The position numbers were made by a program, and so were the translations under genes. Of a stretch of DNA of 51,165 nt, positions 1 through 51,165 are shown in pieces (the stretch's first letter is position 1; each line of letters opens with the position of its first letter). The stretch is from contig CANGUX010000004.1 in the NCBI GenBank assembly GCA_947457385.1, forward strand, positions 1-51,165. Direction: 5' to 3'. Origin of the DNA: Holosporales bacterium. GTDB lineage: Bacteria > Pseudomonadota > Alphaproteobacteria > Holosporales > Holosporaceae. The notes under the pieces are model-generated. The model was not told where the DNA came from. It worked only from the letters and a program-made list of their open reading frames with translations, and did no database searches.

Positions 1-316
1 CCTCACGTGGACCGCGTCCTGAAGGTGGAGGATATGCCTCACGTGGACCCCGTCCTGAAGGTGGAGGATTTGCATCGCGTGGACCCCGTCCTGAAGGTGG
101 AGGATTTGCATCGCGTGGACCCCGTCCTGAAGGTGGAGGATATGCCTCACGTGGACCGCGTCCTGAAGGTGGAGGATATGCATCACGTGGACCGCGTCCT
201 GAGGGAGGAGGATATCCATCGCGTGGCCCCCGTCCTGAAGGGGGAGGATATCCATCACGTGGACCCCGTCCTGAAGGTGGAGGATATGCCTCACGTGGAC
301 CCCGTCCTGAGGGAGG
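1..316. repeat. 36-bp tandem repeat, 8 full units plus a partial, inside a coding tail
   Basis: Units begin at 1, 37, 73, 109, 145, 181, 217, 253 and 289 (last one partial). They are nearly identical in DNA, differing mainly at cct/cat, cgc/ccc and tat/ttt positions. The length is a multiple of three, so copy-number change keeps the reading frame. The repeat probably continues upstream of the window. Confidence 0.92.
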
Positions 317-500
317 TTTTGCTCCGCGACCTGAAGGGGGGGGCGCTCCACGACGTCCTCGTCCAGGGGGAGGAGGCTATCCATCACGTGCACCAAGACC
401 GGGAAGTAGCTTTGCACCACGTGGACCAAAATCTGAAGGGGGGTATCCCCCACGTGAACCGCGTTCTGAAGCAAGATCTTTTCGTCCCAAGAAATTTTAA
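3..500 (+). CDS. 3' end of a Gly/Arg/Pro-rich repeat protein (5' truncated)
   Basis: Reading frame 3 is open from the first bases of the window to the TAA at 498-500. It encodes about eight copies of the 12-residue unit SRGPRPEGGGYA (Y/F and A/P vary), then degenerate units, then a basic end, FRPKKF. There is no start codon in the window, so the gene begins upstream. The composition (alternating Arg, Gly and Pro with a lone Glu and a Tyr/Phe) resembles the disordered, RNA-binding-like C-terminal tails found on bacterial pseudouridine synthases, DEAD-box helicases and other RNA proteins, but no catalytic domain is visible and the product cannot be named. Frame 1 (7-525) is also open, but it gives a highly charged VLKVEDMPHVD repeat. 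I regard that as a shadow of the 36-bp DNA repeat, because frame 3 is the one that keeps a coherent composition into the degenerate region and ends on a normal basic tail. Confidence 0.7.
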   Translation, partial: SRGPRPEGGGYASRGPRPEGGGFASRGPRPEGGGFASRGPRPEGGGYASRGPRPEGGGYASRGPRPEGGGYPSRGPRPEGGGYPSRGPRPEGGGYASRGPRPEGGFAPRPEGGGAPRRPRPGGGGYPSRAPRPGSSFAPRGPKSEGGYPPREPRSEARSFRPKKF

Positions 501-2987: not shown

Positions 2988-3902
2988 GTGACACTTGCAG
3001 CCATTTTCCCAGGACAGGGATCTCAGTGCCTTGGTATGGGGCACGCTTTATATCAGCAATTTCCTTATATAAAACCATGGTTTCAAGAAGCTGAAGAGGT
3101 GTTTCAGCTCCCTTTGCGCACGTTGATGTTTGAAGGCCCAGAAGACGCTTTAAAACCAACTCACATCGCTCAGCCCGCTTTGTTTGTGCTGAGTATGGCG
3201 TGTATGGAGGTGATGCGACATGAAGGGATAGAGCCAGGTTTTGCCTATGCAGCAGGACATTCCTTGGGGGAGTATTCAGCCTTTTGTGGATTTGGTGTTC
3301 TTTCTTTTTCTCAAACCCTATCCCTTATTCGGCTGCGTTGTGAGAGCATGGCGCGTGCAATGCCAGGAGGGATGCTTGCTATTCTAGGCCTTTCCATGCA
3401 TCAGGTAGAATCTTTTCTGCAAGAGAACTGTGATATCGCCAATGATAACACCCCCCAACAGGTGGTGGTGAGTGGGGATTTAGAAGGATTGCATGCTATG
3501 AAAGAACGGGCAGAAGCACACGGGGCACGTCGGTGTGTAATATTAAATGTCAGCGGTCCTTTTCATAGTCGTCTTATGGCAGACGCCCAGAAAGTGCTGT
3601 CAGATGCTGTGAAGGATCTTTCTTTTCATGAACCCAAAATTCCTATTTTAACCAATGTTTCAGCCCTTCCAAAAACAGATCCTCTTCTTTTAAAGCAAGA
3701 TCTTGTGCAACAGATTACGGGTCGTGTGTTGTGGCGGTCGACGCAACAGACTCTGCAAGCATTGGGTGTGAGCGAGCTGCTTGAAATAGGGTCAGGGCGT
3801 GTCTTGTGTGGGTTGGCCAAACAAACGATTCCCAACGTTTCCTGCACTTCCCTTGCAACCCCCGAGGCGCTATGGGCCTGGCATGAAAGTCATTTAGGTT
3901 AA
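2988..3902 (+). CDS. fabD: malonyl-CoA:ACP transacylase
   Basis: Transfers malonyl groups from CoA to acyl carrier protein, feeding fatty acid elongation. The 304-residue length is normal for FabD. Visible motifs are FPGQGSQ at residues 7-13, the nucleophile elbow GHSLGEY with Ser92, and the catalytic histidine His193 in SGPFHSRLM. The start is GTG at 2988, preceded by AAAGAGG at good spacing; no better ATG exists. The gene stands alone: the usual partners fabG, acpP and fabF do not follow. It converges on ftsI across a 286-bp spacer. Other genes of the same pathway in the window are accD and fabI. Confidence 0.96.
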   Translation: MTLAAIFPGQGSQCLGMGHALYQQFPYIKPWFQEAEEVFQLPLRTLMFEGPEDALKPTHIAQPALFVLSMACMEVMRHEGIEPGFAYAAGHSLGEYSAFCGFGVLSFSQTLSLIRLRCESMARAMPGGMLAILGLSMHQVESFLQENCDIANDNTPQQVVVSGDLEGLHAMKERAEAHGARRCVILNVSGPFHSRLMADAQKVLSDAVKDLSFHEPKIPILTNVSALPKTDPLLLKQDLVQQITGRVLWRSTQQTLQALGVSELLEIGSGRVLCGLAKQTIPNVSCTSLATPEALWAWHESHLG

Positions 3903-48614: not shown

Positions 48615-49529
48615 ATGAAAGTCTCTCTTGTGCAGTTTTTGCCTTTTATCATGCAAAAAAAATTAAGAGGAGCGGTGCTTTATGGGTACGACGAGGGTCT
48701 GATGCAAGGTCTATTGGGCGAAATGCAAGATGCTCTATCGTGTTCTGTGATGCGCGAAGAAGAGGCGTTAGCCTGTCCTGAAATCATAGGAGCCCCCTCA
48801 CTCTTTGCAGCCCCTTCAGCCGTGACTTTGATTCCAAACGTAACGCGTTCTTCGGCTATCCTAGGGCTTTTGGAGGGGCTTCCTCCTGCACACATCTTAG
48901 TGTGGACCACCTCAGAAAACAGCGCTGCATTAACCCCTTTTTTAAGCTCAGCACACGTGGGTGTTGTGGCATGCTATGAGTGTAGCGCACAAGAATCTTC
49001 TTCTTTATTGCGCAGACATGCTCAAAAAAAAGCTCTGACCTTTCATCCCGAAGCCTTTGCATTATGTGCAGAATGGACCCGTCATGGCACTTGGGAAACG
49101 TGTTGTCAATCGCTTTATTTGTGTCAAGAATCCCCCATATCCTCTGAATGTATCATGGCCTTGTTAGAAGAGCCCCAGCAAGAACTTGTTCTATTGCCTT
49201 TGAAACCCTCTTCAATTTCTATTCCTCCCTTAAGCGCTTCGGAAGGATTAAAGCTTATTCGTGCTTGGCAACGCCTATTTCTTCAATTAGGGCAACTTAT
49301 AGCTTTAAAGAGCGTTTTGACCCATCCAGACACCCTTAAACGCGTTTCTCCTCCTATTTTTTTTAAACATACCCCTTTTTTAATAAAAGCGGTACCCTTT
49401 TGGCCAATCCATCGTCTCGCCAAATCCTTTCAAAATCTAGCAATCTGTGAAATTGAACTCAAAAAGAATCCCAATCATAGCCAAGGATTACTTGCTTGCC
49501 TTTTAAAAACACTCTTGTCTGATGATTAG
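48615..49529 (+). CDS. holA: DNA polymerase III delta subunit
   Basis: Clamp-loader subunit that opens the beta clamp. The 304-residue length is normal. The N-terminus (LRGAVLYGYDEGLMQGLL) matches the delta pattern of ssDNA/ATPase-like domain I. The C-terminal domain has SPPIFFKHTPFLIKAVPFW (family RPPVFFKRK...) and LAICEIELKKNPNHSQGLLA, typical of alphaproteobacterial HolA. GGAAAGGGAT stands before the ATG. In many alphaproteobacteria holA is the gene next to parB, close to oriC; here parAB are not in the window but a dense DnaA-box cluster lies 1.4 kb downstream. Confidence 0.85.
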   Translation: MKVSLVQFLPFIMQKKLRGAVLYGYDEGLMQGLLGEMQDALSCSVMREEEALACPEIIGAPSLFAAPSAVTLIPNVTRSSAILGLLEGLPPAHILVWTTSENSAALTPFLSSAHVGVVACYECSAQESSSLLRRHAQKKALTFHPEAFALCAEWTRHGTWETCCQSLYLCQESPISSECIMALLEEPQQELVLLPLKPSSISIPPLSASEGLKLIRAWQRLFLQLGQLIALKSVLTHPDTLKRVSPPIFFKHTPFLIKAVPFWPIHRLAKSFQNLAICEIELKKNPNHSQGLLACLLKTLLSDD

Positions 49530-50018: not shown

Positions 50019-50834
50019 TCATTGATTTGTTTTTTCCAATACAATATCTGGTGCATCTTTTGCTTTCATGCCTACGATATTATAGCCTGCATCCACGTGA
50101 TGGGTTTCACCTGTAACCCCACTAGACAAATCACTTAATAAATAAAGCGCTGATTTTCCTACATCTTCAAGGGTAATATTACGTCTAAGGGGGGCATTGT
50201 TTTGGCTCCATTGCAGAATATATCGAAAATCACCAATCCCTGATGCAGCCAATGTTTTGATGGAACCACACGATAGGGTATTGACCCTGATGCCCTTTTT
50301 CCCGAGATCTTCTGCAGCATAGCGCACGGACGTTTCAAGAGCTGCCTTAGCAACGCCCATGACATTGTAATGAGGCACCACTTTTTCAGATCCAAAATAA
50401 CTAAGGGTTAAAAAACTTCCCCCTGGGTTCATAAAGGCAGATCCATGTTTTAACGTTTCAATAAAGGAATAGCATGAAATAAGCATGGTGTTTAAGAAAT
50501 TTTCACGCGATGTTTGAATGAAATCGCCTCGCAATTCTTCTTTATTAGAGAATGCGACTGCATGCACCACAAAATCCAACGTTTCCCATGAATGGCTCAA
50601 ATCTTGGAATACGCGTTCTATAGCACCTTCCTCGGTCACATCACAGGGAAACACAAGAGAAGACCCCAAAGATTCAGATAAGGGTATCACGCGCTTTTTA
50701 AAAGGCTCACTAGCATAGGTAAATGCCAGCTCAGCGCCATGAGAAGCCAATTCTTTGGCAATCCCCCAAGCTAAGGAATGGTCATTGGCTACGCCGCAAA
50801 TGAGCCCTTTTTTCCCCTGCATTAAAGGTTTCAT
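50019..50834 (-). CDS. fabI: enoyl-[acyl-carrier-protein] reductase (NADH)
   Basis: Last reductive step of fatty acid elongation; target of triclosan-type inhibitors. The 271-residue SDR product has the N-terminal GLICGVANDHSLAWGIAKEL, LDFVVHAVAF, and the catalytic residues Tyr146, Tyr156 and Lys163 in LSYFGSEKVVPHYNVMGVAK, numbered as in E. coli FabI. GIRVNTLSCGSIKTLAASGI and LLSDLSSGVTGETHHVDAGYN complete it. AGAGAG precedes the ATG. It is transcribed away from the DnaA-box cluster, which begins about 100 bp upstream of its start, so DnaA could influence its promoter. Confidence 0.97.
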   Translation of the reverse strand: MKPLMQGKKGLICGVANDHSLAWGIAKELASHGAELAFTYASEPFKKRVIPLSESLGSSLVFPCDVTEEGAIERVFQDLSHSWETLDFVVHAVAFSNKEELRGDFIQTSRENFLNTMLISCYSFIETLKHGSAFMNPGGSFLTLSYFGSEKVVPHYNVMGVAKAALETSVRYAAEDLGKKGIRVNTLSCGSIKTLAASGIGDFRYILQWSQNNAPLRRNITLEDVGKSALYLLSDLSSGVTGETHHVDAGYNIVGMKAKDAPDIVLEKTNQ

Positions 50835-50933
50835 TATGCTCTCTTTCTTTTTTCTTAAGGGTATCGAATTTTTTTCCCCCTAACAACCCAATCTATATAA
50901 AAGAGAGGTAGTAGTTGTAGGGCCTGTGCAAAC

Positions 50934-51028
50934 TGTGCATAACTTTTGAAAAACGCAAAAAAACCCGAGAAAAATCTAGTTTTTTTTGAAAAAGTTATGC
51001 ACAGGGTTATGCACAGGCCTGTGCATAA
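50934..51028. promoter_or_regulatory. four DnaA boxes as direct and inverted copies around an AT-rich spacer
   Basis: Perfect TTATGCACA sites lie at 50995-51003 and 51007-51015 (plus) and at 50934-50942 and 51020-51028 (minus). They match the DnaA consensus TTATNCACA. The first pair forms a 15-bp perfect inverted repeat, CTGTGCATAACTTTT (50933-50947) and its complement (50990-51004), around a 42-bp spacer that is about 71% AT and contains A and T runs. The second pair forms a perfect 24-bp palindrome (51006-51029, half site GTTATGCACAGG). A degenerate inverted copy, TGTGCAAA, stands just to the left (about 50925-50932). The layout is that of a DnaA-regulated element, probably part of an origin. 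Confidence 0.75.
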
Positions 51029-51045: not shown

Positions 51046-51165
51046 GTTATGCACAGGTTATGCACAGGTTATGCACAGGTTATGCACAGGTTATGCACAG
51101 GTTATGCACAGGTTATGCACAGGTTATGCACAGGTTATGCACAGGTTATGCACAGGTTATGCACA
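51046..51165 (+). repeat. 11-bp tandem array of DnaA boxes (GTTATGCACAG)x11, runs off the window
   Basis: The unit GTTATGCACAG repeats without a mismatch from 51046 to the window end, the last copy being cut after TTATGCACA. Each unit contains one perfect DnaA box; the boxes start at 51047 and every 11 bp to 51157, eleven in all, in the same orientation. An 11-bp period is about one helical turn, so all boxes face nearly the same side of the DNA. The array continues beyond the window, so its true length is unknown. Likely roles are replication origin or DnaA titration. Confidence 0.85.

Follow-up and report, generated by a model that had tools for sequence, protein, structure and literature searches.

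Layout of the locus

The window is the whole 51,165 bp stretch analysed and makes up the entire contig C4 of an assembly of 778 kb in 37 contigs. Towards its right-hand end lies fabI, which encodes an enoyl-ACP reductase (50019-50834, minus strand). It is followed by a holA-like gene with a weak match to the DNA polymerase III delta subunit (48615-49529, plus strand). Upstream of fabI there are four perfect DnaA boxes at irregular spacing (50934 -, 50995 +, 51007 +, 51020 -) and a perfect head-to-tail 11-bp repeat of TTATGCACA DnaA boxes (51046-51165, plus strand). Tandem Repeats Finder gave this array a period of 11, 10.9 copies, 100% matches and the unit GTTATGCACAG. This and the count of exact sites confirmed the eleven identical perfect boxes at an exact 11-bp period described in an earlier note. 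Exact TTATNCACA sites numbered 17 in the window compared to 1.9 ± 1.4 in shuffled sequences, none of which reached 17. Eleven of the 17 are inside the array and the four irregular boxes are just to its left. The other end of the window (1-500) starts in a 36-bp repeat of 8.6 copies, which encodes a protein's SRGPRPEGGGYA-type repeat tail, the protein being truncated where the contig ends.

The outermost of the four boxes (50934-50942, minus strand) is a strong box pointing away from the array, towards a set of DnaA-trios. Next to it is a 13-bp spacer (50921-50933, minus strand) with a GC-rich GGCC and, at 50925-50933, a weak DnaA box (TGTGCAAAC). The DnaA-trios follow at 50909-50920 (minus strand; TAGTAGTTGTAG on the plus strand) and read 3'-GAT GTT GAT GAT-5' from the box, so that three of the four triplets are 3'-GAT. 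No other site in the 51 kb has CTA in the first triplet and in at least two of the next three, and this one lies 13 bp from a DnaA box. Basal unwinding systems consist of a DnaA box, a spacer whose length peaks at 10-13 bp and trios of consensus 3'-GAT-5' (PMC8287927). The box and the 13-bp spacer match such a system. The second trio (GTT) has no middle A as is usual, and the strict published run of three successive NAN trios is incomplete here. A candidate unwinding region adjoins the trios (50856-50908). It is not strongly AT-rich, at about 0.6-0.7 per 25 bp, and is at most a moderately AT-rich flank. Between the module and the array lie a plus-strand box (50995-51003), 12 bp ahead of the next box, and a perfect 22-bp palindrome, TTATGCACAGGCCTGTGCATAA (51007-51028), formed by two opposed DnaA boxes.

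Contig C4 terminates inside the array. In the 778-kb assembly the repeat occurs at just two sites. One is the end of C4, and the other is the start of C28 (L020), where bases 1-124 carry 11 boxes of identical strand and orientation. The simplest reading is that these would be a single array split by the assembler, a join which we infer from the sequences and which is not itself assembled. C28 starts with CAG and 11 full units before unique sequence, while the first unit on C4 is preceded by AAA. The joined array would therefore have at least 12 units. This copy number depends on the join and is a lower bound, to which the four irregular boxes to the left are additional. At least 16 boxes would thus be present at a single locus. 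A repeat dispersed over the genome, which the earlier note had named as a refuting observation, was rejected as only this locus was found, and the interpretation of the array as an origin was unaffected.

On the C28 side the array is flanked by a HAD-family phosphatase, an asparagine-synthase-like protein (asnB) and a gene which we take to be plsX from reading its protein. Core chromosomal genes flank the array on both sides: fabI, holA and ligA on C4, and asnB and plsX on C28. The array is not beside dnaA and dnaN. The dnaA gene is on contig C21, which has no exact box, and an origin beside dnaA was rejected. A parS site near the array was also rejected, with the best parS-like site located on contig C16 and not linkable to the array.

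Homologous box clusters and GC skew

The fabI gene is present in all nine other genomes of the order. In each of the three genomes of the sister genus g4 (G007, G008 and G009) 9-11 TTATCCACA boxes are found upstream of fabI, and holA follows fabI as in the window. The layout is also alike, with TAGTTGTAG trios, an opposed box and then forward boxes, and a box is found at a position similar to that of 50995-51003. When oriented alike the box order is -,+,+,(+),-,+n in G007 and G008, while the inner opposed (reverse) box is missing in G009. The motif TAGTTGTAG is invariant in the three sister genomes and the window genome (4/4). From its sequence, the 50909-50942 module is like a basal unwinding system, with a DnaA box, a spacer of 11-13 bp and DnaA-trios common to the four genomes.

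The clusters differ in other respects. The sister boxes are TTATCCACA compared to TTATGCACA in the window, the fifth base of the box being C in the sister genus and G in the window. The trios lie 11 bp from the opposed box compared to 13 bp in the window. In the sister genus the final forward run comprises 4-6 boxes at steps of 11-19 bp, whereas the window run would have at least 12, each exactly 11 bp from the next. A search of related genomes for the same array, as suggested in the earlier note, gave a homologous cluster in three genomes, where the long uniform array itself was absent. In the flanking sequence glmU takes the place of the HAD phosphatase. A plsX homologue is about 25 kb away in G008 on the side equivalent to C28, with gene order otherwise shuffled.

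Cumulative GC skew was examined in a 220-kb contig of G008. It falls up to 184-195 kb and rises thereafter. The changepoint is broad, with the best two-mean changepoint at 184 kb and 192 and 195 kb nearly as good, and none of 1,000 shuffles of the 1-kb bins was as strong. The G008 box cluster is at 191.7-191.9 kb, within this switch. A second small group of three TTATCCACA boxes was seen in the same genome at 99168-99264 of contig C1, about 92 kb from the origin cluster. The window genome is fragmented and only local skew was compared, which went from -0.08 in the 3 kb left of the region to +0.07 in the initial 3 kb of C28.

Judged on sequence, the array locus is very probably the chromosomal origin (oriC) of this small-genome bacterium. 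The origin reading of the earlier note is supported by the skew switch in G008, the box, spacer and trio module and the conserved fabI-holA neighbours. An origin at fabI kept across the whole family was rejected, as fabI has no box cluster beside it in the family's genera g2 and g3. In G003, from one of these two genera, the sampled skew minimum is at about 785-800 kb, far from fabI at 75 kb. That region of contig C1 (L199, L200) is without a strict DnaA-box cluster, and the origin of G003 must use other or diverged sites.

Long DnaA-box arrays in other genomes

When 84,980 species genomes were scanned for runs of four or more exact boxes in 11-bp steps, 49 stretches matched, and 17 of these have dnaA, dnaN or gyrB within 2 kb. 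All run counts require exact boxes and assembled repeats and are lower bounds. In several phyla, 4-5 boxes in 11-bp steps are found beside dnaA or dnaN. The longest run, and the lone comparable case among about 85,000 genomes, is in the Candidatus Binatia MAG JAJDZM (L068/L070). This has eleven perfect uninterrupted boxes at exactly 11 bp (TTATCCACAGG) located at an origin, as is probable for the window array. In L070 the boxes adjoin the 3' end of dnaA and are flanked on each side by unique sequence, and contig L068, which overlaps L070, continues into dnaN. The Binatia array lies between dnaA and dnaN, whereas the window array lies elsewhere, and by its record title the MAG is of an unrelated lineage. 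Three other Binatia records have 4, 4 and 5 boxes at the same site.

The next longest runs are 7 + 7 on a plasmid of Pantoea edessiphila and 6 in a Halanaerobiales MAG. The former is the Candidatus Pantoea edessiphila plasmid pSOE2 (L052, a 3.8-kb record), with two arrays of seven TTATCCACAGG-type units at 3417-3618. The longest run on viral contigs was 6 among 58 matches, and a phage origin of the array was rejected on this basis. Among 385 genomes of the window's class no comparable array was found besides the window's own, and one other genome has a single run of three. No description of a long homogeneous DnaA-box array was found in the open-access literature. The statement in the earlier note that no origin with this layout is known was too strong given the runs of 4-5 boxes near dnaA and dnaN and the 11 boxes in the Binatia MAG. 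Few other sequenced bacteria were found to have the layout, which provides a natural test of the number of boxes an origin can carry. A separate arrangement, inverted pairs of runs with 3-5 boxes each at 11 bp and about 15-150 bp apart, was seen in L048, L053, L056, L063, L074, L082, L092 and L093. These are mostly Dependentiae/TM6 records, together with Dichelobacter, and possibly reflect a shared origin plan.

Proposed role of the array and alternative explanations

The spacing of the boxes is known biology. The two-bp gap between them is a published DnaA preference (PMC11317965, PMC8235120), and E. coli DnaA prefers gaps of 2-3 bp (PMC11317965). The length and uniformity of the array are the rare part. 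The earlier note had also suggested a continuous DnaA filament on one face of the helix, at one box per turn. This is approximate only. A step of 11 bp against 10.5 bp per turn drifts by about 17 degrees with each copy, adding up to about 190 degrees for 12 copies, so the sites leave one face and form a slow spiral.

The boxes of E. coli oriC form two oppositely oriented groups: unwinding is promoted by the left one, and the right one strengthens the unwound state as well as aiding DnaB loading (PMC10316083). The window likewise has two opposed groups of boxes, with gaps in the range E. coli prefers (PMC10316083, PMC11317965). Each E. coli group comprises about five boxes, most of them weak and ATP-specific, whereas in the window one group is long and all its boxes are strong. 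Because the array is opposed to the box of the unwinding module, its best counterpart in E. coli oriC is the right half, in enlarged form. The basal unwinding system of B. subtilis shares with the window its DnaA boxes, short spacer and 3'-GAT-5' trios (PMC8287927) but is without a long array. In the window the array is on the far side of the module and points away from it.

An oriC with an expanded right-hand, DnaA-oligomerising half is the reading we favour and consider highly likely. The fabI side would provide the unwinding module, made up of the strong box, weak box, GC-rich spacer and DnaA-trios. The run in the opposite orientation, of 4-6 copies in the sister genus, would have expanded to 12 or more identical copies, each separated from the next by exactly 2 bp. 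As happens on the right-hand boxes of E. coli oriC, DnaA probably forms a head-to-tail oligomer on the array. This would concentrate DnaA beside the unwinding module and could aid helicase loading. The array probably also reduces free DnaA straight after initiation, because its boxes are strong and are duplicated first in each round.

In the standard model initiation timing relies on an ordered mix of strong and weak DnaA boxes. The origin described here would consist mainly of identical strong boxes at the spacing preferred by DnaA, with a short version in sister species and the same layout in the unrelated Binatia. These form a natural series for testing whether box number alone sets the initiation threshold and whether such arrays promote or restrain initiation. 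A bolder proposal, to which we give little weight, is that initiation control has been rebuilt on a long homogeneous array of strong sites, in which copy number would set the threshold and reset, possibly together with a changed DnaA helix.

The alternative that survives best accepts the locus as oriC but takes the extra copies as a minisatellite expanded by neutral slippage, with its length having little effect on initiation. The visible copies are all identical, pointing to a recent expansion or homogenisation. Sister species get by with 4-6 irregularly stepped boxes, and the Binatia relatives vary between 4, 4, 5 and 11 boxes at one site. On the other side, long perfect runs of strong boxes are very rare, reaching a maximum of 6 in the 58 viral matches and of 7 in about 85,000 genomes when Binatia is excluded. 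Changing weak oriC boxes to strong ones leads to over-replication in E. coli (PMC12342881), and the length of the array is therefore unlikely to be neutral. This alternative is a serious possibility, though the less probable side of the question.

It is less likely still that the array is mainly a DnaA sink beside oriC, limiting initiation in the manner of datA or of titrating plasmid iterons. The genome has roughly 38 perfect boxes, and the array together with the four adjoining boxes accounts for at least 16 of them. In E. coli, datA is a cluster of boxes near oriC which represses untimely initiation (PMC5742627). As a class, datA is a cluster separate from oriC which lowers ATP-DnaA with IHF, whereas the cluster described here is within the origin region. 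The array is contiguous with the unwinding module and is an expanded form of the box run at the sister-genus origin. This makes it part of the origin rather than a separate locus.

A further alternative concerns the initiator itself. The DnaA of the window organism (C21:2236-3651, minus strand; L103) has FGGRNHTTV in the recognition helix, while eight aligned relatives of the same order have FGGRDHTTV and the ninth (G001) has FGGRDHATV. Asparagine thus occupies the position of E. coli D433, which is aspartate in the aligned relatives. D433 is highly conserved and touches base 7 of the box (PMC8235120). Asparagine may weaken each contact, and more boxes would restore occupancy, so that the array would offset the changed initiator. 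We regard this as doubtful. The Asp motif was found in 283 of the 385 class genomes, and three (the window genome, G185 and G312) had a genuine DnaA with the Asn motif. Neither G185 nor G312 has a run of three or more boxes, and co-evolution of the Asn variant with the array was unsupported. The box also differs from that of the sister genus at base 5, not base 7, and base 5 is dispensable for E. coli DnaA (PMC5043019).

Iteron plasmid origins are similar to the window in having phased direct repeats bound by an initiator (PMC5043065), as DnaA would bind here. Iterons bind plasmid Rep proteins, with a rep gene nearby, whereas the window repeat is a DnaA box in a chromosome-like setting, its named neighbours being chromosomal housekeeping genes. 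Both contig ends fall within simple repeat, but a plasmid-type iteron locus, telomere-like repeat or assembly artefact in place of an origin is very improbable given the fabI, holA and ligA (C4) and asnB and plsX (C28) flanks, the single locus, the skew switch in the sister genome and the conserved trios.
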